Positions 3,884 to 14,575 of a stretch of 33,403 nt of DNA are shown here, one piece after another (the first letter of the stretch is position 1; each line of letters starts with the position of its first letter). The notes under the pieces are model-generated. The model was not told where the DNA came from. It searched no databases and saw only the letters and a program-made list of their open reading frames with translations. Source of the DNA: an uncultured Flavobacteriales bacterium. Lineage in GTDB: Bacteria; Bacteroidota; Bacteroidia; Flavobacteriales_D; Sanyastnellaceae. Location: the NCBI GenBank assembly GCA_937881575.1, contig CALGEI010000012.1:1-33403 (forward strand), in the 5' to 3' direction. The position numbers and the translations under genes are program-made.

Positions 3884-4831
3884 ATGAGTACAGTTCCTGA
3901 TTTTCATGCGAAAATTTACATTGCAGGACACCGCGGGATGGTGGGTTCTGCCATTGTGCGCCGATTGGAATCGTTGGGATATACCAACCTCATTACCCGA
4001 ACGCGACAGGAGCTGGACCTGATCAATCAAGCGGAGGTCGATGCGTTTTTTGAAACTGAAAAACCGGCTTTGGTCTATCTCGCCGCAGCCAAAGTGGGAG
4101 GCATCCACGCCAATAACATCTACCGTGCTCAGTTTCTTTATGAAAACCTGATGATCGAAGCCAACATCATCCATTCAGCTTGGAAACATGGTGTGACCAA
4201 GTTGCTTTTTCTCGGATCAAGTTGCATTTATCCCAAGCTGGCTCCACAGCCTTTGCAGGAAGAGTCCTTATTAACAGGGCCCCTGGAGCCAACGAACGAA
4301 CCGTATGCCATTGCCAAAATTGCGGGAATCAAATTGTGTGAGACGTATCGGGATCAATACGGGGCCAATTTCATCAGCGCCATGCCCACCAATCTCTACG
4401 GACCCGGTGACAATTATGACCTCGAAACAAGCCACGTATTGCCCGCCTTGTTGCGCAAAATCCACACGGCTAAAATGAACGGGACTCCTTCTGTCTCATT
4501 GTGGGGTACGGGCTCTCCGAAACGCGAGTTTTTGCATGTGGATGATCTCGCAGAAGGATGCGTGCATCTCATGGACCAGTATGACGGCAGTGATTGGGTC
4601 AATCTGGGGACAGGGGAAGACTTGAGTATCCGCGAGCTCGCAGAGATGATTTGCAGCATTGTGGGCTACGACGGCGTCCTGGACTGGGACACATCCAAGC
4701 CAGATGGCACCCCCAGGAAACTGATGGATGTGAGCCGGGTGAATGCCCTTGGCTGGACGGCCAGCATCGGATTGAGAGCGGGCATCGAACGGGTGTATGC
4801 CGAGGTTCAAAGCACGTTTGAATCCGCATGA
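3884..4831 (+). CDS. fcl: GDP-L-fucose synthase (epimerase/reductase)
   Basis: Fcl (WcaG) turns GDP-4-keto-6-deoxy-mannose into GDP-L-fucose with NADPH, the second step after Gmd. The 315-residue protein is an extended short-chain dehydrogenase with the nucleotide-binding GHRGMVG at 15-21, the serine-rich GSSCIYP at 111-117, and the catalytic Y141xxxK145 (PYAIAK). The family-typical [10 protein letters not shown] and [12 protein letters not shown] stretches follow. The length is normal for the family. The TGA overlaps the ATG of the Wzi-like gene (ATGA at 4828), linking nucleotide sugar supply to capsule assembly. The matching gmd lies 20 kb downstream at 24889, so the pathway is complete in this window but split. 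Confidence 0.95.
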
Positions 4832-6273
4832 CGCAAGGGCCGCATCTTCCCTCCAACAACTCCTTGATCAAATGGCCTTTGTGGCTTTTCTGTATCCTGT
4901 GGCTAGCCCCAGCGGCGGATGCACAAATCATCCGAGATGTTTTTGGGAATGTTCCGGCGATTCGTCACCCCAAGGAAATCCAGCCTGCTGAGGGCAGCCC
5001 GTGGAAGCAAATTTGGCACCGGCATTTGTTTGACTTTTCGGACTCCATCAACTCCCTTGTTGTTGACCCCGTCGTGCAGGCTCATTGGGGGCAGGCCCGA
5101 GGATTGGAGACAGATGCGATCTGGGACAACATTCGCGGGGCACGTTTCCGAGCGCGCATCGATGGGATGTGGTACGTTGGCGGAGAGTTGCTCGAGCGGC
5201 AAGGTATTGCCAGCCCCATGCTGGGCCATTGGGCAGCGCAAAAACGCATTCCGGGATGGGGACGATCAAAGCTGGGGCGCGACAGGGGGAACAACACGGC
5301 CGACAACGCGTATTATGACGTCTCAAGAGCGCGCGGATGGTGCGGATGGAGCAATGACACCTGGTTCGTTGATGGCGGGATTGATGCGCTGCACATCGGA
5401 GCAGGAACAGGCAGTGCTTTTTTGTCCATGGAAGCCGCTCCTGCACCGTACATCCGTGTTGCCCGAGAAGCAGGCAAGCACCGCAGCACCATATGGGCAA
5501 CCCGTTGGGTGGGAACAGAGCGCGGTCCATTGGGTGAAACTGCTGAATCGCTTCTCAATCGTTCCCGTGCCCTATTTGCCATGCAATCGTGGCAACTCAC
5601 ACCTCACCTTCTCATGCAAGGGGTATATTCCTTCGTTCAAGAGAAGGAGAATTCCGTTGCCATGGGGTCCTGGGAAGGCTGGAATGAAGGCGATCTCTAC
5701 CGTGCACAGCGTCACTGGGGAGGATTGGAAGTGCAGCTCACTGGTTCTATTGATGCCGCTCTACCTTGGAGAATCTATATACAAAGCGCCACGGATGTGG
5801 TGCCAAGACAAGGAGAGGCGTATCATACCAGCACGGACCGAACCGCACTGACGCACCTTGCTGGGCTCAACATTCAAGTGAGTTCTTTCAGCCTTCAGCT
5901 CGAATACATTCAGAGAGGAAATGCCCACTGCCGTGATTGCTTCGGCCAACTGGCTGCTGATGGGGTCATTCAAATGGCAGGGCCCGCTCGAGCATTGTTA
6001 GAGAATGGAGGCATTTCAGTTCAAGCTCCTTGGGAAGAGAGTCTGCGTTTGAATGCACATTGGGGCCTGTCCAAAGCCCTTTCATTGCAACTGCAAGCTG
6101 AATCCAATGCGCTTTTTTCTTGGATCACTCCACAATTCCTCTGGAACATCCAGACCGCATGGCCACTGAGGGCATTTGCTTCCTACACCGCCGGCTTGCA
6201 TGAAAGCGAGACCCCTTCAACCAATTTTAGCTATTGGCAATTGGGTGTGCGTTCCGGTCTGATGTCATTTTGA
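4828..6273 (+). CDS. Capsule assembly Wzi-family outer-membrane protein (first copy)
   Basis: A 481-residue exported protein. Residues 14-33 form a signal peptide (hydrophobic [13 protein letters not shown] followed by AADAQ), and the rest is rich in W, G and alternating residues as in an outer-membrane beta-barrel. It resembles the Bacteroidota capsule assembly Wzi family (PF14052): the region with [11 protein letters not shown] near residue 210 aligns with QAAPLPFASLRV in the second copy at 7577. E. coli Wzi is an 18-strand lectin barrel that holds capsule on the cell surface; that this protein binds the local polysaccharide is inferred. Its ATG overlaps the fcl stop codon. Similarity between the two copies is weak by eye, so family placement is less certain here than for the second copy. 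Confidence 0.65.
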
Positions 6274-6371: not shown

Positions 6372-7529
6372 ATGATCATATTCGTCGCAATTTCATCCTT
6401 CTTTATGACTCTTTTTGGTATGCCGACCTTAATTAAGGTCGCCAAACTGAAACAGCTCGTTGATGAGCCCGGTGAAGACAGAAAGATCCACCACCGGAGT
6501 GTCCCGACAATCGGAGGAGTGATGATTTTCATCTCAGTTTTTTTCAATGTGTTGTTCTGGGCAGGGTTGATAGGGGTCGATGCCTCTTTTGACGCCTCCG
6601 CCCAACCCATGACACTTGCCTGCCTTGTCTTGATTTTCTTCATGGGCCTGAAAGACGACATCATCGGCATGTCTCCCAGCAAGAAACTCTTGGTGCATTT
6701 GTTCATTGGTCTAGCGCTAACGACCATCAGTGAATACCGCATCGAGTCATTCGGCGGATTGTTCGGCGTCTATGAACTTCCAGAATCACTGAGCATCATT
6801 TTCTCCATTTTCGTTTACATCGTCATCGTCAACGCCTGGAATTTGATTGATGGATTGGACGGATTGGCTGCAGGCTTTACGGTCATCGCTATGAGCGCAT
6901 TTACATTTTGGTTTTTGAGCGTTGGCGCAATGTCCGAAGCTCTGTTATCCATTGCAACAGCTGGGACATTGCTCGGTTTCTTGGTGTTTAATTTCGCTCC
7001 AGCGCGCATTTTCATGGGCGACTGCGGTTCGCTCTTCGTTGGCGTCATAGGTTATGTGCTTGCAACCTCAGTGATCGCCACCCCCATTGAAGCAATTCCT
7101 GACCATTTGCTCTTAGTGTCTAAAGAGGTCTTGGTCATGGGCATTTTGTCCTACCCGCTGGTTGATACGCTTCGTGTCTTCATTCTACGTGCAGCTCGTG
7201 GCATTTCACCATTTCATCCTGACCGCAACCACTTGCACCACCGACTCATGATGCAATTTGGCACCCACAGGAAAACCGCCATAAGTGTCTATGCGTATTC
7301 CATAGCCATGATTCTATTGGCTTTTTCGACGCCTTATTTGCGTGGAATTCTCCCCCTCGAAATTCTGTTCTTTGGCTTATTGGCCATTGCTTTTGGAACG
7401 TTCTATCCTACCTTGAGGAGGACGAAAAAAAGCTACATGATTAGCCTACTGCTCGACCAACCTGAAATCCCGAAAGGCAAGAAGAAGCCACTCGATGGTG
7501 TGGATTCTAAACAATCCATTTTGGCTTGA
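6372..7529 (+). CDS. WecA/MraY-family undecaprenyl-phosphate sugar-1-phosphate transferase
   Basis: A 385-residue polytopic membrane enzyme that would move a sugar-1-phosphate, usually GlcNAc-1-P, from its UDP form to undecaprenyl phosphate, the first step of lipid-linked polysaccharide synthesis. Family motifs are all present: the substrate loop DRKIHHRSVPTIGG (36-49), the Mg-binding aspartates D95-D96 (KDDIIG), NAWNLIDGLDGLAAG at 154-168 with D160 and D163, MGDCGS at 215-220, and a late HHRLM motif. About ten hydrophobic segments are visible. The ATG at 6372 gives a good first membrane helix. The gene sits between two Wzi-like genes in a surface polysaccharide context, which favours WecA-type function over MraY. 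It might initiate O-antigen or exopolysaccharide. Confidence 0.9.
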   Translation: MIIFVAISSFFMTLFGMPTLIKVAKLKQLVDEPGEDRKIHHRSVPTIGGVMIFISVFFNVLFWAGLIGVDASFDASAQPMTLACLVLIFFMGLKDDIIGMSPSKKLLVHLFIGLALTTISEYRIESFGGLFGVYELPESLSIIFSIFVYIVIVNAWNLIDGLDGLAAGFTVIAMSAFTFWFLSVGAMSEALLSIATAGTLLGFLVFNFAPARIFMGDCGSLFVGVIGYVLATSVIATPIEAIPDHLLLVSKEVLVMGILSYPLVDTLRVFILRAARGISPFHPDRNHLHHRLMMQFGTHRKTAISVYAYSIAMILLAFSTPYLRGILPLEILFFGLLAIAFGTFYPTLRRTKKSYMISLLLDQPEIPKGKKKPLDGVDSKQSILA

Positions 7530-7576
7530 TTGCTCCCCGCGTGTTGGGCTCAATCTTGACCCCGTCTGAGACGAGG

Positions 7577-9184
7577 ATGAGGAAGAATGCTTCTCTCGCA
7601 CTGCAGCCACGACCTTCACTTTTCTTCATTTTTTTTGTTCTTGGATTTGGAAGTGCGAACGCTAAGGTGACGCCTGCTGACACCGTCCACTGGCATCCTT
7701 TGAAGGGCGCATTCAATGCTCCTTTGGTCCTTCCTCATTCCCGAAACATCGCATCGGACAGTACTTTGAATTCATTTCTGGATTGGAGTGCCTATGCGAC
7801 TGTACAATATGCTCCGGGCGCCAGACTGCAAGGAAGTTGGGTGCAACTCCCGACTGCTGGCGGATTGGGATGGGTCACCGGGCTCAGCGTCTATGGCCAG
7901 CATCGACAATGGTCATGGCAAACCAACTTGGACCATTGGCGCGTAGCCGGTGTGCGCGAATCCGATTGGAATGAAGCCTGGCAATGGGGGACTTGGGATG
8001 GGTTGGGGCGAGCATGGAATCCGAATGAAGCCGACATTGCCGTTCTCCGCACTACGGGCCATTTAGACTTCCAAGTCAGCCCTTCCGTTGTGCTTTCTTG
8101 CGGGCAAGAAACCCATCATTGGGGTCAGGGTTGGAGGTCGTTGTGGCTGGACCGTCAAGCAGCTCCTTTGCCTTTTGCCAGCCTGCGTGTAAAATTGGGG
8201 CGCGCGGACTACACACACCTGATTGCTCGAACCCAGCATCTCGGTGTAGGAAGCCCGCCTGCGATTCCTACGAATGGAAGGGACAATCCCGGCGCATATA
8301 CCACGAGACGAAGTGCTTGGCTCGCTGCTCATGCTGTCGAAATTGATCTCGGCCGAGGATGGAGTGGTTCTCTTTTTGGGGCGGTTACTTGGCTCAACAA
8401 TGACAGTGGCTACACCCATCGCTTTGAAGGGGCTTACGCGTTGCCTTTTATCGCCTTCCGCCCGACTGAATATGCCATTGGATCAGCTGACAACGCTTTG
8501 ATGGGGGCCGCGATGAGTTGGGTACCGAAATGGGCCAGCGATCGTCTTCTGCTTCACAGTCAAGTTTTGTTGGACGAACTTGTTGTCAGCGAAATGCGGG
8601 CTGGCGACGGTTGGTGGGCCAACAAGTGGGGCGCATTGGGCTCCATCCAATGGAAGACTTTAGATCAACGTTGGCGCGTCGTCGCAGAAGGGGTCGCAGT
8701 GAGGCCTTTCACCTATTCACACGCTTCAAGTGTGCAAAGTTGGACCCACCGCCATCGTCCATTGGCCCACCCCGGTGGAAGCAATTTCGCAGAAGCGCGC
8801 CTGCACGTCCAATGGACAAAAAACAACTGGAAAGCGCGCATGGGTTGTGTTTGGATGCAACAAGGAGTGGACGCTCCCACGCCGCTAGGTGAGGAGCCGA
8901 CCTTGGCCATTGGAGCTGACCCGTTGATTTCATATTTGACGAGACCTACCGATTATGACGTTGATCTCATTTGGAACGGCGGTGGATTGGTGGACGGCGC
9001 CGGAATCCAAACGAACGTCCGATGGTGGACCGATGTTGCCTTTTCCCTTCCTCCACTCGAAGGACAAGAAGTGTTTTTGCGAGGCTTTTTGAGGGATGAG
9101 ACGGGGACGCATGCTGCAGCGAATTGGTGGCGAATTGAGATCGGCATTCGCTTAGAAAACATTTTGGAAGAGCGCAATTGGTAA
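7577..9184 (+). CDS. Capsule assembly Wzi-family outer-membrane protein (second copy)
   Basis: A 535-residue exported protein with a signal peptide (hydrophobic PSLFFIFFVLGFG, cleavage near SANA) and a W/G-rich predicted beta-barrel. The Wzi-like hallmark is the stretch SCGQETHHWGQGWRSLW around residues 175-191 followed by QAAPLPFASLRV, common to the Bacteroidota capsule assembly Wzi family. I chose the ATG at 7577, preceded by ACGAGG, because it places the signal peptide right at the N-terminus. The frame is open to a TTG at 7526 that overlaps the previous stop codon, but this would put 17 charged and polar residues in front of the signal peptide. It lies 47 bases after the WecA-like gene and probably shares its transcript. 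Role in anchoring or shaping polysaccharide at the outer membrane is inferred. Confidence 0.75.
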   Translation: MRKNASLALQPRPSLFFIFFVLGFGSANAKVTPADTVHWHPLKGAFNAPLVLPHSRNIASDSTLNSFLDWSAYATVQYAPGARLQGSWVQLPTAGGLGWVTGLSVYGQHRQWSWQTNLDHWRVAGVRESDWNEAWQWGTWDGLGRAWNPNEADIAVLRTTGHLDFQVSPSVVLSCGQETHHWGQGWRSLWLDRQAAPLPFASLRVKLGRADYTHLIARTQHLGVGSPPAIPTNGRDNPGAYTTRRSAWLAAHAVEIDLGRGWSGSLFGAVTWLNNDSGYTHRFEGAYALPFIAFRPTEYAIGSADNALMGAAMSWVPKWASDRLLLHSQVLLDELVVSEMRAGDGWWANKWGALGSIQWKTLDQRWRVVAEGVAVRPFTYSHASSVQSWTHRHRPLAHPGGSNFAEARLHVQWTKNNWKARMGCVWMQQGVDAPTPLGEEPTLAIGADPLISYLTRPTDYDVDLIWNGGGLVDGAGIQTNVRWWTDVAFSLPPLEGQEVFLRGFLRDETGTHAAANWWRIEIGIRLENILEERNW

Positions 9185-9257: not shown

Positions 9258-10121
9258 ATGCCCGATCGCCTCAAAGACATTGCTGAACTTTTTAAAATCC
9301 GACTCGGGTTTTTCGTTGTGCTTTCCGCCGTTCTCGGTTGGTTCATGGCCGTTGATACCATGGACTTAACCACCTTCTTGCGGCTCGCCTTGGGCGGTTA
9401 CCTTCTGACAGGGGCCTCCAATGGGCTCAATCAAATCATAGAAACACGCGTTGACGGGCTCATGACTCGCACAGCCAATCGCCCTCTACCGACAGGACGT
9501 ATGACCGCACAACAAGCATGGATCTACAGCCTGTTGGCCGCAGTCATCGGCTTGGCTTGCCTCTTTTCGCTCAACCCATTGAGCGGTTGGCTCGGTGTCG
9601 CAGCGATCGTGAGTTATGCGTTCATTTATACCCCGTTGAAAGGCCGTACGTCCCTCAGCGTGTTTGTCGGGGCCTTCCCTGGGGCACTCCCACCCATGAT
9701 CGGGTATGTTGCGGCCACAGGAGACTTTGGCATTGAACCTGGGTCGCTTTTTGCTGTTCAATTTATGTGGCAGTTCCCTCACTTTTGGGCCATCGCTTGG
9801 CTCGCACACGACGACTATTTGAAAGCCGGCTATCAGCTGCTCCCTTTCACGGGTGGACGCACCAAACGAAGTGCATGGCAAATCGTCGTGTATTCTCTCT
9901 TCTGCATTCCCGCCTCCTTGCTGCCGTGGGCACTGCCAAATGGCAATCCCATGGTAGGGAATACGGCACTCGTTGTCGCTCTTCTTTGTGGGGTGATGTT
10001 CTTAATTCCGGCGGTTCAATTGTATCGCACCCTCGAAATGAAAGCGGCCCGCCGATTGATGTTTGCGTCCTTCATCTATTTACCCGTGGTACAACTCGCC
10101 TATGTCTTGGATAAGCTATGA
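9258..10121 (+). CDS. ctaB: Protoheme IX farnesyltransferase (heme O synthase)
   Basis: CtaB (CyoE) attaches a farnesyl chain to heme B to make heme O for heme-copper oxidases. The 287-residue protein is a UbiA-family membrane prenyltransferase with about nine hydrophobic helices. The first prenyl-diphosphate/Mg motif is N58xxxE62xxxD66 followed by RTANRPLPTGRM; Glu replaces the usual first Asp, which I recall as normal in Bacteroidota CtaB. The second motif region YTPLKGRTSLSVFVGAFPG is intact, as is the HFWAIAWLAHDDY loop. Length is normal. Its TGA overlaps the ATG of the first subunit III gene (ATGA at 10118), tying cofactor synthesis to subunit production. CtaA (heme A synthase) is not in the window. 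Confidence 0.95.
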   Translation: MPDRLKDIAELFKIRLGFFVVLSAVLGWFMAVDTMDLTTFLRLALGGYLLTGASNGLNQIIETRVDGLMTRTANRPLPTGRMTAQQAWIYSLLAAVIGLACLFSLNPLSGWLGVAAIVSYAFIYTPLKGRTSLSVFVGAFPGALPPMIGYVAATGDFGIEPGSLFAVQFMWQFPHFWAIAWLAHDDYLKAGYQLLPFTGGRTKRSAWQIVVYSLFCIPASLLPWALPNGNPMVGNTALVVALLCGVMFLIPAVQLYRTLEMKAARRLMFASFIYLPVVQLAYVLDKL

Positions 10122-10933
10122 AACACATGACTGATCAAACTACACCCCGCAATTCTGCATCTTACGATGTTTTCGAAGGCGTCGAGCCTGCAGTTCGTGA
10201 ACGCACCAAAAAAATGTTGATGTATTTCATCGTTTTTGCTGTCGTCATGTTGTTTGCTGGTTTCACCAGTGCCTATATCGTTTCCAACATGGGACAATAT
10301 TGGGTCAATGTAGCGCCGACTTCAGCCTTTTGGATGTCCAACGTTCTGCTCGTCCTTTCGTCAGTTTCACTTTGGTGGTCTGTACGCTCTATGCGTTCAG
10401 GGTCTAAACAATCGGCACTCATTGGGCTTGTCGTCACCTTCGTCTTGGGCCTGGGTTTCACCTTCAGTCAAGCACAAGGATGGGAAGACTTGTCCCGAAT
10501 GGGACTCGGATGGACGACTACAGACCACGAATCCGGTATGAAAGCGTACCGCTGGAACAGCATTGAGTCCGTCATTGAGAGCGAAGCCGTATACGGAGAC
10601 GACTACACCATCACGCGCGGAGGGGAACCCGTCCTGTTTGACGCAGCAAAAAAAGAATTTTACGCCCCGAATGACCTGCTCATGGTACGGCCGATTTCGC
10701 GCGAAGTGGCCCGCACATCGAATTCTGGCGGAGGATATTTGTGGATTCTCATCGCCGTCCACATTCTGCACTTGACATTTGGTTTCGTTTACTTGGTCAT
10801 AAGCGGCATCCGTGTGGGACAAGGCGTCATTCATTCTAAAGATGTAGTCCGGCTTGAAACGCTGAGTATTTACTGGCATTTCATGGGAGCCCTCTGGCTC
10901 TACCTCTTTGCTTTTCTCTTCTTCATTTACTGA
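10118..10933 (+). CDS. Heme-copper oxidase subunit III, first copy
   Basis: A 271-residue polytopic protein of the cytochrome c oxidase subunit III family. Five or so hydrophobic helices are visible: two before residue 90, one at 99-117, and two after residue 206 ending in the family-typical SIYWHFMGALWLYLFAFLFF. The conserved helix glutamate appears to be E123 (QGWEDL). Unlike canonical subunit III, residues about 133-205 form a hydrophilic, strand-like insert that should lie outside the membrane. The gene is coupled to ctaB by ATGA and is followed by a second subunit III gene at 11073. Subunits I and II are not in the window. It may help assemble, or form part of, an aa3/caa3-type enzyme. 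Confidence 0.88.
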   Translation: MKHMTDQTTPRNSASYDVFEGVEPAVRERTKKMLMYFIVFAVVMLFAGFTSAYIVSNMGQYWVNVAPTSAFWMSNVLLVLSSVSLWWSVRSMRSGSKQSALIGLVVTFVLGLGFTFSQAQGWEDLSRMGLGWTTTDHESGMKAYRWNSIESVIESEAVYGDDYTITRGGEPVLFDAAKKEFYAPNDLLMVRPISREVARTSNSGGGYLWILIAVHILHLTFGFVYLVISGIRVGQGVIHSKDVVRLETLSIYWHFMGALWLYLFAFLFFIY

Positions 10934-11072: not shown

Positions 11073-12053
11073 ATGGGAGGAGAATCGACAAAAGTGATTT
11101 CAAACGAAGTTCTCTGGGGAGGCGGACAGTCTCCTTTCAGCGTCAGTTATGGAAAAATGATGATGTGGTACTTCCTCGTATCAGACGCATTGACGTTTGG
11201 AGGATTGCTGACTGCATATGGTTTCGTTCGTGCGAGCAGCACGGATCCTTGGCCGATCGGGGAACAAGCTTTTCGCTCGTTGCCGTTTGTTGAAGGTGAA
11301 TATCCCCTCATCTATGTCGCGTTGATGACGTTCATTCTCATCGTGTCTTCGGTCACCATGGTTTTGGCGGTAGAAGCGGGGCATCGGAATGACAAACGGG
11401 AGGTCATCAAGTGGTTGGGTTTGACCATTATTGGAGGCTTCTTCTTCTTAGGCTCTCAAGCATGGGAATGGTCACACTACATCCATGGCAGCGGCGGAAC
11501 GTTCCTCTTGAATGAAGCAGTCGTCGTCACATCAGACGATGGCCAAACATTTTCCTTGAACAAAGGGGATGCTGTCTATATGGATCATCACTTCGGTCAT
11601 TTGGCAGAGCCTTGGATTGAAGGAGAGCCCCAAGTAAGCTTGGTCGAAAGTGATCACGGCGTGAAGTTGGTAGAAATGGGTGAGCATGCGCACGAAGTGG
11701 AATTGCATAGCCTTACGCTCAATAAATACATCAACAACGAATCCCATGTCAGTGGTGCTGACGCCATGAAGTTGTGGAATGCACGGTCTGAGAGCTTTTC
11801 TTTCGGAGCGAACATGCACGTGAATGAGTATGCCTCGCAGCAGGCTTATGCCAATTTCTTCTTCTTCATTACCGGCTTCCATGGTTTCCACGTATTCTCT
11901 GGTGTTGTCATCAACATCATCATTTTCATCATGGCGTATCGCGGAGTCTTTGAACGCCGCAAGCACTATGAAATGGTGGAGAAAATTGGATTGTATTGGC
12001 ACTTTGTCGATTTGGTTTGGGTGTTCGTTTTCACCTTCTTCTACCTCATCTGA
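11073..12053 (+). CDS. Cytochrome c oxidase subunit III, second copy
   Basis: A 326-residue polytopic protein with clear subunit III signatures: the conserved glutamate in QAWEWSHYIH (E132), the NEYASQQAYANFFFFITGFHGFHVF block (251-275) and the C-terminal YWHFVDLVWVFVFTFFYL. A large hydrophilic insert (about 138-258) separates the fourth and fifth helices, longer than the insert of the first copy. It contains short beta-like units such as DDGQTFSLNKGDAVYM and acidic/His-rich segments (GEHAHEVELH). This copy is the closer match to canonical CoxC. A private promoter box and palindrome lie upstream, so it may be controlled apart from ctaB and the first copy. Subunit IV follows after 39 bases. 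Confidence 0.93.
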   Translation: MGGESTKVISNEVLWGGGQSPFSVSYGKMMMWYFLVSDALTFGGLLTAYGFVRASSTDPWPIGEQAFRSLPFVEGEYPLIYVALMTFILIVSSVTMVLAVEAGHRNDKREVIKWLGLTIIGGFFFLGSQAWEWSHYIHGSGGTFLLNEAVVVTSDDGQTFSLNKGDAVYMDHHFGHLAEPWIEGEPQVSLVESDHGVKLVEMGEHAHEVELHSLTLNKYINNESHVSGADAMKLWNARSESFSFGANMHVNEYASQQAYANFFFFITGFHGFHVFSGVVINIIIFIMAYRGVFERRKHYEMVEKIGLYWHFVDLVWVFVFTFFYLI

Positions 12054-12092: not shown

Positions 12093-12470
12093 ATGGAACG
12101 CGACGACCTCATTGTCAACGACAGCTACGCCCTGAACGCTCATCATAGCGAAGAGGAAGGTGCGAAAATCCGCCGAAACACTTGGAAAGTGACCGGCATT
12201 TTGACACTCTTGACGACAGTTGAAGTCATCATGGGCATCTACTTCAAACGTTCCGAGGCTTTTTCTTGGACGATGATCAAGTGGACCTTTATCATCTTGA
12301 CAGTGGTCAAAGCTGCATACATCGTCCTGGTATTCATGCACCTTGGTGATGAACGGAGCAATTTAAAGAAGGCCGTTCTTGCGCCGTATATGCTGTTCAT
12401 TGCCTACTTGCTTTTCATTGCGATCACTGAAGGCTTTGGACATTTGGGCAATTTCAACGCATTCCATTGA
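12093..12470 (+). CDS. Cytochrome c oxidase subunit IV-family protein
   Basis: A small 125-residue membrane protein with three hydrophobic helices (about residues 30-52, 58-78 and 91-110). It fits the prokaryotic cytochrome c oxidase subunit IV family (PF03626) by length, helix pattern and place after subunit III; the VKAAYIVLVFMHLGDE stretch is typical. The helix order and the short acidic/His N-terminus (NAHHSEEEG) match Bacteroidota members. In related enzymes this subunit stabilises the CuB region but is not catalytic. The ATG at 12093 is the only good start. The next gene begins 79 bases downstream after a possibly structured leader. Confidence 0.85.
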   Translation: MERDDLIVNDSYALNAHHSEEEGAKIRRNTWKVTGILTLLTTVEVIMGIYFKRSEAFSWTMIKWTFIILTVVKAAYIVLVFMHLGDERSNLKKAVLAPYMLFIAYLLFIAITEGFGHLGNFNAFH

Positions 12471-12549: not shown

Positions 12550-13785
12550 TTGAATTTCATTTCCACGAAAAAACTGAAGCAATCGTTTTATTTGATTGCC
12601 ATCATGCTAGGGCTGCCTCTCACGGGCTTGCTCATTTTGGGAATTGACGGAGAACACCACTTTAACACGCTTCCCTATTATTCCGAAGAAGGATTGATGG
12701 AAACTTGGAGCACTGACGCCCGCCGCGTTGGGCAGTTCGCATTCACCAACCAAGACAGCGTTGAATTTCGTTCTGAAGCACTAGAAGGCAAGGTTTGGTT
12801 GGCGGCATTCTATTCTACGGAAGCCGATCATGTGGCGCAGATGACCAAGCAGCTGCTTTGGCCCAACTTTCGCTATCGCGATGAAGATGACATTGCAACG
12901 GTTTGTTTCACGCTCGACGCAGCCCATGACCAACCGGCCGTCCTACTTGAATATATTGAACGTACGACCCGTTACAATGGCTTCAACGGTAAGTGGCAAT
13001 TCCTGACAGGCGACCAAGGTGCGATTGATGACCTGATTGCAGAGTCCTTCATGATTGAACGCGATCCGGAGGAGCCCAACAACATCGCGACGCTCTGGCT
13101 GGTCGACGGAGAAGGCTACCTCAGGGGGGTTTACCACGCGGCGTCAGAAGATGCCATCAAAGATGCGGTCGAGGACATTGCGCTGCTGCAAAAAGAGATG
13201 GACGAGGCAGCGTATGCTCGAAAAAAAGCCATTGAGACCGCAGAACTCGCTCCTCCGCTTCCTATCCTGGGCCCAGAAGGGCACACCGTGCCTGCCTTTG
13301 CCTTTCTAGGCATGGACAGCCTTGAGTTTTCGCACCGAAATGTGGGCAATCGATTGCGCATCGTTGATTTTTTCTTCACGCGTTGCCCGACCATTTGTCC
13401 ATTGATGAGCAGCCAGATGGCCAGACTGCAACACACGCTTCGAGCCAAAGACATGCACCATGATGTGCTCTTATTGAGTCACTCCGTTGATCCAGAGCAC
13501 GATCGACCACATCGACTTCAAGCTTATGGCGATCGCATTGGCCTCAATCCCGAACAATGGCAAATGGTCACGGGTGAGAAGGAATCGATTTATGACATGG
13601 CGCGAGAAGGGTATTTCCTCACAGCATTGGAAAGCGATACTGCAGCCGGAGGTTTCTTCCATAGTGACTTGTTCGCCTTGGTTGATCGAGCGGGACGGAT
13701 TAGAGGTTACTATGACGGTACATCCACAGCAGAGGTGGATCGGCTTTTGAACGATACAGAACAACTTTGGATCTTAAATCAATGA
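12550..13785 (+). CDS. SCO1/SenC-family copper chaperone with an extra degenerate N-terminal domain
   Basis: SCO proteins deliver copper to, or reduce, the CuA site of cytochrome c oxidase. This 411-residue protein is nearly twice the usual length. A membrane anchor (13-32) is followed by two thioredoxin-like domains joined by a charged linker (about 210-240). The C-terminal domain is complete: C279PTIC283 and the copper ligand H371 (GGFFHSDLF). The N-terminal domain (about 60-205) has the same frame, including a VDGEGYLRG strand matching VDRAGRIRG, but E91, V95 and N178 stand where the two cysteines and the histidine should be. Start: an in-frame TAA at 12538 leaves only the TTG at 12550 before the anchor; the first ATG (12604) would cut the membrane helix. 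It is coupled to the DUF420 gene by ATGA at 13782. Confidence 0.88.
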   Translation: MNFISTKKLKQSFYLIAIMLGLPLTGLLILGIDGEHHFNTLPYYSEEGLMETWSTDARRVGQFAFTNQDSVEFRSEALEGKVWLAAFYSTEADHVAQMTKQLLWPNFRYRDEDDIATVCFTLDAAHDQPAVLLEYIERTTRYNGFNGKWQFLTGDQGAIDDLIAESFMIERDPEEPNNIATLWLVDGEGYLRGVYHAASEDAIKDAVEDIALLQKEMDEAAYARKKAIETAELAPPLPILGPEGHTVPAFAFLGMDSLEFSHRNVGNRLRIVDFFFTRCPTICPLMSSQMARLQHTLRAKDMHHDVLLLSHSVDPEHDRPHRLQAYGDRIGLNPEQWQMVTGEKESIYDMAREGYFLTALESDTAAGGFFHSDLFALVDRAGRIRGYYDGTSTAEVDRLLNDTEQLWILNQ

Positions 13786-14333
13786 CCATGCTCGAAAATG
13801 AACGTGCGGTAAAACGCTTTGTTTGGATCGTCGCCGTGACCATTCCGGTTGCTGTGGCGTTGTTGTTTTTCATTCCTCCGGCCGAGAATTTATCGGAAGA
13901 AACACGGCTAGCGCTGTACCGACTTCCCCAGTTCAATGCTTGCTTCAACGGTGCGGCCTTTTTCTGTTTAATCGGTTCTCTTGTTGCCATCAAAAACAAA
14001 AATATACCGTTGCACCGACTACTCAATACGGTGGCGCTCTCTCTGAGCGTGCTCTTTTTATTGAGCTACGTAGCTTTCCACCTCACCACAGAAAGCACAC
14101 CCTATGGCGGTGAAGGATGGATGCGCACCGTGTATTTCATCATACTCATTTCACACATCCTGCTTTCCACGGGCATCATCCCTTTGGTCTTATTCACGTA
14201 TTATCGTGGTCTGCGAATGGACGTTGATCGCCACCGAAAACTGGCCCGAGTCACCTGGCCCATTTGGCTTTATGTGACCGCCACAGGCGTGGTGGTGTAT
14301 TGGATGATTTCGCCTTACTACCCAATCGGATGA
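13782..14333 (+). CDS. DUF420 membrane protein of the oxidase locus
   Basis: A 183-residue integral membrane protein with four to five helices. It matches the DUF420 family (PF04238), which in Bacteroidota and Bacilli (CtaM) sits beside oxidase genes; in Staphylococcus CtaM is needed for aa3-type oxidase activity. Histidines on helices (H in PLHRLL, VAFHLT, ISHILL, DRHRKLARVTWP) match the family pattern, and the C-terminal LARVTWPIWLYVTATGVVVY is typical. I use the ATG at 13782, which overlaps the SCO stop codon; a second ATG at 13788 and a TTG at 13767 are alternatives. Its TGA overlaps the next ATG at 14330. An assembly role is inferred from the family and context. Confidence 0.87.
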   Translation: MTMLENERAVKRFVWIVAVTIPVAVALLFFIPPAENLSEETRLALYRLPQFNACFNGAAFFCLIGSLVAIKNKNIPLHRLLNTVALSLSVLFLLSYVAFHLTTESTPYGGEGWMRTVYFIILISHILLSTGIIPLVLFTYYRGLRMDVDRHRKLARVTWPIWLYVTATGVVVYWMISPYYPIG

Positions 14334-14575
14334 ACAGAGTCACACGTTTGTTCTTCAGTTTCTTGTTGGTAACAGGTGCTTTCTGCCTCGTCCCTGCAGA
14401 TGCAGAAGCCCAATGTGTCATGTGCAAAGCCGTTGCTGAAGACAGCGCGTCAGATGGCGGGATAGGAGCTGGACTCAATCGGGGAATTCTCTACCTCATG
14501 GGCATCCCATACATTTTGTTATCCGCTCTTTTCTTCGTAATTTATAAGATGTGGAAGGCTGACGCCACTTCTTGA
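14330..14575 (+). CDS. Small secreted-anchor protein with CxxC motif
   Basis: An 81-residue protein. Residues 1-27 look like a signal peptide (hydrophobic LFFSFLLVTGAFCLV, cleavage after AEA), so the mature protein would begin Q28-C29 and carry C29-V-M-C32 almost at its N-terminus. A single C-terminal membrane helix follows (about 54-73, LYLMGIPYILLSALFFVIY). The topology would place the two cysteines on the periplasmic side. I recall similar short proteins after DUF420 in other Bacteroidota but know no assigned function. ATGA overlap with DUF420 argues for co-production. The CxxC pair suggests thiol redox or metal handling during oxidase assembly; that is inference. Frames reading further upstream are shadows of DUF420. 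Confidence 0.8.
   Translation: MNRVTRLFFSFLLVTGAFCLVPADAEAQCVMCKAVAEDSASDGGIGAGLNRGILYLMGIPYILLSALFFVIYKMWKADATS

Follow-up and report, generated by a model that had tools for sequence, protein, structure and literature searches.

Why would a gene in a bacterial oxidase cluster join two copies of the copper chaperone SCO in one polypeptide when one of the copies holds none of the copper ligands? The window, i.e., the whole stretch of 33,403 nucleotides analyzed here from an uncultured Flavobacteriales bacterium, raises this question at positions 12550-13785 of its forward strand, where an open frame with a TTG start (a later start is possible) encodes a 411-residue product in which a Pfam scan finds two SCO domains. 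The retention of a ligand-free SCO has lacked an explanation ever since plant HCC2, as the available part of PMC6696091 presents it. The answer that we favor, with a probability of about 0.5, is that the ligand-free domain would anchor and dock the copper-loaded SCO at the assembling oxidase and that the center being filled would be CuA of subunit II.

The C-terminal half (residues 246-409, 13285-13776) is a canonical SCO domain. It matches SCO1-SenC (PF02630) with an E value of 9.3e-22 (77.9 bits), its modeled fold is the SCO-type thioredoxin fold (PDB 4hde, Z 24.7, rmsd 1.7, 167 residues aligned), and a residue check of the translation places the CxxxC motif and the distant histidine where the first-pass annotation had read them, at C279 (13384-13386), C283 (13396-13398) and H371 (13660-13662). 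As expected of SCO1/SenC members, this half would bind copper and deliver it to CuA. The N-terminal half (residues 58-200, 12721-13149), searched alone, matches the same Pfam family over residues 61-173 (E 2.7e-8, 34.3 bits against a curated cutoff of 22.8). A profile of the N family compared with PDB puts the SCO chains 1xzo, 1on4 and 4hde on top (E 4e-22 to 3e-21) and the best non-SCO chain only at E 0.06; given this wide lead, the match is specific to SCO and far beyond chance. Profile-profile comparison of the N and C families gives an E value of 8.7e-31. The duplication that had been read by eye from the letters, with one copy devoid of ligands, is thus borne out, and the profile search proposed for the N half places it in the SCO family rather than in an unrelated one.

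Structure prediction agrees. The whole-protein model (pLDDT 94, pTM 0.79, from a 63-row alignment and predicted without subunit II or CtaM) consists of a membrane helix (residues 6-32, 12565-12645), a thioredoxin fold, a long helix linking both domains (residues 200-233, 13147-13248) and a second thioredoxin fold. The first helix, predicted to attach the protein to the membrane, has a hydropathy of 2.29 over 19 residues from residue 14, and D209 and K215 of the linking helix are invariant in the 25-row N-family alignment. As the structural check suggested beforehand required of the N half, residues 54-215 of the model do form a thioredoxin fold, aligning to the thioredoxin-family chain 3or5 with Z 14.8 and rmsd 2.8 over 142 residues. 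When the fused model was compared with known structures, the SCO chains listed all aligned to the C half and filled the list, so the fold of the N half is judged from the two rows that do align there together with the sequence profiles.

The ligand positions of the N domain are occupied by other residues. N178 faces H371, as had been proposed; E91 and V95, put forward as the counterparts of the two cysteines, are each one residue off, since A92 and A96 face the cysteines in the multiple alignment, and A92 and a gap do so in the profile alignment. None of the alignments made puts a cysteine or histidine at the three ligand places of the window's N domain. This extends to its relatives: of the 70 distinct N domains compared, 41 of them fused and 29 separate, not one has cysteine at these places, and the Cys, Cys, His set is complete in all 73 canonical copies, three of which are second SCO genes. 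The place of the copper-binding histidine holds asparagine in every one of the 41 fused N domains, the window's included, and histidine in 6 of the 29 separate ones. The N proteins of genus g20 do carry a CxxxC motif, which lies in the leader ahead of the domain and off the ligand places. Nor was a CxxC active site of the TlpA/ResA type found in the N domain, whose family has no conserved cysteine column.

Loss of ligands has not relaxed selection on this half. Over 190 pairs drawn from 20 fused genes, median identity is 0.735 in the N domain against 0.641 in the C domain, and pN/pS is 0.217 against 0.315, the latter measure being a rough guide because synonymous sites have almost saturated. 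In two of the five close pairs compared individually (window-L003 and window-L014), the C domain is slightly the more similar. Overall, the N domain is the better conserved half and under stronger constraint than its liganded partner.

In what follows, families and genera are coded f1, g1 and so on, f1 being the family of the window. The N domain is present in 103 of 114 f1 genomes (E value 1e-30); for high-quality genomes the count is 49 of 50. This recurrence argues against a sequencing error. It is fused to a canonical SCO in 56 of these 103 genomes (open frames of at least 375 aa), belonging to g1, g3, g9, g10, g13 and g14; among the other 47, at least two (G022 and G095) seem to be truncated at a contig end and not to be separate genes. 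Fused relatives also occur in 11 named public records labeled as Flavobacteriales, Crocinitomicaceae or Bacteroidetes MAGs. The fused frame in these 56 genomes and 11 named-record loci rules out that the fusion stems from faulty assembly or a frame error.

The picture is wider than the first-pass annotation had it. In the pairs fetched from other f1 genera, the two halves are adjacent genes with the ligand-free one upstream; the ligand-free copy is therefore older than the fusion in the genus of the window. Among 28 such pairs, all N proteins have a strong membrane helix, and all pairs have overlapping frames (starts were taken furthest upstream, which may lengthen the overlap). A lipobox-like cysteine, read by eye, is found in 26 of the 28 canonical partners. 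The sequences thus suggest two types of anchor, a membrane helix for the ligand-free protein and a lipoprotein-like one for the canonical SCO. At the domain junction, none of the six fused proteins checked has a second hydrophobic stretch.

Fusion has probably occurred more than once. In a tree of 59 members built on their concatenated N and C domains, which omitted near-copies and all named records except L003 and took the long-branched L070 as outgroup, a quick search needs two changes between the fused and separate states, and the well-supported branches force two changes. The loci of g10 that were examined include two separate pairs and six fused genes, and the canonical copies of both separate pairs start with a seemingly complete lipoprotein signal. 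A single fusion followed by a split would have had to restore that signal, which makes two fusions the simpler account. A further fused protein of about 398 residues occupies the same slot in family f3, in all four loci examined (L287-L290), which were picked because a genome search had shown long frames there. Its N domain retains two cysteines six residues apart, and this fusion is likely independent of those in f1.

A tree of SCO domains, weak on account of its long branches, unites the f1 N domains (support 100/99) and groups the f1 C domains with the canonical single-slot SCO of f4 and f44 (90/87), the long-branched f1 C row (L070) falling inside with f4. The latter grouping suggests that the C copy descends from the original gene of the slot, the N copy being the one that changed. 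This tree left out 16 of 25 N-family rows, 13 of 22 C-family rows and slot proteins with a profile score of 25 bits or less, and it labeled as canonical an f87 protein that has kept the cysteine pair and lost the histidine. Unconstrained, it scatters the degenerate SCOs, and the f42 protein pairs with a canonical SCO from f53 (support 97/84); a topology that forces the 24 degenerate rows into a single clade survives the AU test (p 0.36).

The genomic setting of the fused gene is that of oxidase biogenesis. Upstream on the same strand lie a ctaB-like UbiA prenyltransferase gene (9258-10121, PF01040, E 8.6e-52), a heme O synthase by context that is kept in the cluster of other families, two COX3-like subunit genes (10118-10933, PF00510, E 1.6e-8, and 11073-12053, E 4.3e-13) and a prokaryotic COX4 gene (12093-12470, PF03626, E 4e-11). 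Immediately downstream, and also on the forward strand, the longest frame for the DUF420 (CtaM) oxidase assembly protein (13767-14333, PF04238, E 1e-42) overlaps the 3' end of the fused gene, which thus sits between cox4 and ctaM. According to the part of PMC9145763 available, Staphylococcus aureus needs CtaM for a working aa3 oxidase, and Bacillus subtilis needs it for both aa3 and caa3; a 2026 paper, likewise seen as an extract (PMC13344008), proposes that CtaM exports copper for SCO. A CuA-type COX2 with CNKVCGAAHFNM is encoded in the window's genome on another contig.

To learn how this place is filled elsewhere in the class, where DUF420 was found in 129 of 139 genomes, 60 loci were fetched so as to cover families with one or two each, 59 placed by their DUF420 match and one (f4) by its SCO match. 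Candidate proteins fill the SCO slot in 49 of the 60 (56 slot proteins) and were found in none of the remaining 11. A canonical SCO stands alone in 26 loci, with cox4 recognized alongside in 22; a degenerate protein precedes a canonical SCO in 7; and a degenerate protein stands alone in 16, of which 3 keep the cysteine pair without the histidine and 13 lack the pair. Degenerate SCO-like proteins thus lie between cox4 and ctaM in 23 of the 60 loci, six of them weakly supported. Out of ten degenerate slot proteins scanned with Pfam, three pass the SCO cutoff (f42, E 4.2e-13; f14, E 2.4e-7; f37, just above it), one match is weak (E 0.066) and six proteins have none. Profile evidence is slight for L182, L185, L197 and L211 (16-23 bits), lacking for L222 and weak or lacking for the upstream protein of f47 (L179); these six were assigned from their position and size, a membrane helix and a VD..RG strand, and a strict reading should discount them as SCO.

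All 16 genomes with a lone degenerate slot protein have a Pfam SCO with CxxxC elsewhere, its histidine being seen by a simple pattern in 11, so a ligand-free protein can occur in the slot with no canonical SCO encoded next to it. Conversely, many relatives manage without a slot partner, as the canonical SCO is alone in 26 of the 49 occupied slots. Two families illustrate further states of the slot. The f42 protein (L174:3773-4453) lacks both cysteines and the histidine, still scores above the Pfam SCO cutoff and pairs with a canonical SCO in the tree described above, which looks like a separate, recent ligand loss. The upstream SCO copy of f9 (L223 and L224) keeps CxxxC and has tyrosine or phenylalanine in place of the histidine, possibly as a half-way state or a thiol-only partner.

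A widespread relative is found in f16, where 79 of 80 genomes encode a diverged protein of about 215 residues that lies immediately ahead of a canonical SCO at 29 of the 30 loci inspected. Cysteine occurs anywhere in just 6 of 30 such proteins; they share no conserved cysteine or histidine column, and their single invariant methionine lies in the last helix. One of them, scanned against Pfam and NCBIfam, matched neither. Profile comparison relates the f16 family to both SCO families, with E 4e-8 (probability 95) for the N family and E 4.5e-7 (probability 93) for the canonical one. Its model (pLDDT 90) finds SCO structures as best matches (4hde, Z 15.5; 1xzo, Z 14.4), SCO being mixed with other thioredoxin folds from Z 12.8 down, and a direct Foldseek list ranks SCO first with ResA and others close.

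Among described systems, SCO1/SenC (PF02630; BsSco/YpmQ, ScoI, human SCO1) shares with the window protein the fold, membrane attachment and oxidase-gene neighbors, and the C half is fully liganded; these proteins are described in the available parts of PMC6696091 and PMC9145763 as a single domain with CxxxC and histidine, whereas here a ligand-free SCO domain precedes it. The N domain resembles HCC2 of Arabidopsis, an SCO homologue without CxxxC and histidine (PMC6307045 and PMC6696091, in extract), but HCC2 is a separate mitochondrial protein, and the domain here belongs to an oxidase cluster, either in one polypeptide with the canonical SCO or as the product of the gene directly ahead of it. 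Fusions that tie SCO to DUF420 (CtaM) in planctomycetes (PMC13344008, same extract) are SCO-CtaM fusions, in contrast to the SCO-SCO fusion here, in which CtaM is the next gene. TlpA and ResA likewise combine a thioredoxin fold and a membrane anchor with a role near CuA/cytochrome c assembly (PMC9145763, as available) but differ in that the N family has no conserved cysteine and its profile prefers SCO. In line with the earlier statement that no SCO of this form was known, we found no description of a bacterial ligand-free SCO partner or double SCO in the literature searched, which left subscription papers mostly outside.

We propose that the N half is an SCO domain that has passed through ligand loss and would now serve as a membrane anchor and docking part, keeping the canonical, copper-carrying SCO near subunit II and CtaM while CuA is filled. 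In many f1 genera the two parts are separate, neighboring frames that overlap and encode a ligand-free SCO with a predicted membrane anchor and an SCO that resembles a lipoprotein; in the lineage of the window the genes have been fused, and the membrane helix of the first protein may substitute for the lipid anchor of the second. A ligand-free SCO holding the copper-carrying one is the simplest reading of the ligand loss, the constraint, the place between cox4 and ctaM, the two anchors and the fusion in two families, and it makes plausible the docking module that had been suggested for CuA assembly. HCC2 shows that a ligand-free SCO can be functional (PMC6307045, in the part available). A counterpoint is that shared regulation can equally yield linkage and fusion.

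Three other readings are possible, in descending order an accessory subunit, an HCC2-like stress role and a different metal site. A permanent accessory role for the ligand-free SCO, as a subunit of the oxidase or its supercomplex and not as a helper in copper delivery, seems to us unlikely, yet it deserves the most attention of the three: the place beside subunit genes is kept in all 16 genomes that encode their canonical SCO elsewhere, and a ligand-free homologue is nearly universal in f16. Fusion to a canonical SCO fits an assembly partner more easily. The f16 protein also finds no related chain and no oxidase chain among solved structures (PDB), which is uninformative about subunit status since a control search with cox3b from that locus likewise failed to retrieve a close oxidase chain. 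A redox or stress role apart from CuA delivery, as proposed for plant HCC2, would accord with the rescue of a yeast oxidative-stress defect by HCC2 without a copper motif (reported in the accessible text of PMC6307045), but the fixed position between cox4 and ctaM, the SCO fusion in two families and the lack of a conserved cysteine for redox chemistry in the N family make it rather improbable.

Binding of copper or another metal through different ligands would account for H94, which by eye and uncounted appears frequent near the lost cysteine loop, and for the histidines retained at the old place in a minority of separate N proteins. The 25-row N family speaks against it, with no cysteine, histidine or methionine among its invariant or nearly invariant columns and none reaching 90%, as does the lone methionine of the f16 relatives; we give this reading little credence. 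Finally, the defining ligands are lost, as they would be in a degenerating remnant that persists only through its partner, and this reading is already disfavored: the N domain changes more slowly than the working domain and is kept in nearly every high-quality f1 genome, so that we regard the relic as scarcely credible. Relic and chance resemblance were together rejected on the significant profile matches, the stronger N-domain constraint and the near-universal presence in the family.

With docking by the ligand-free domain as the preferred reading, copper-carrying and shape-only functions seem divided into two domains or genes beside the oxidase, and the occurrence of the twin as a separate neighboring gene in relatives suggests a lasting part of oxidase building. 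A role is thereby suggested for a widespread unnamed protein, the f16 relative. More tentatively, and at clearly less than even odds, the oxidase cluster in much of the class may carry an unnamed ligand-free SCO-fold protein that regularly takes part in oxidase biogenesis or belongs to the enzyme itself; the SCO position of the cluster would then be kept for shape and not for copper, with fusion to the real chaperone more than once. Some bacteria with this split may be genetically tractable; gene deletion is established in Flavobacterium johnsoniae (PMC8552683), which may carry the f16 gene.

Other features of the window and its genome bear recording. Two large secreted-looking proteins (4828-6273 and 7526-9184) have no Pfam match. 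Following ctaM, a small protein (14264-14575), whose longest frame starts within that of CtaM, has a CVMCK motif and a hydrophobic stretch and no Pfam match. The genome also encodes a second, single-domain SCO (G000:C135, L002), which has the complete ligand set and whose loop ahead of the histidine is longer. The COX2 mentioned above (L291:385-1887, contig C124) contains a His/Asp-rich insert of about 55 residues before the CuA motif; PCuAC has no match in this genome, and given this, the insert might hold copper.
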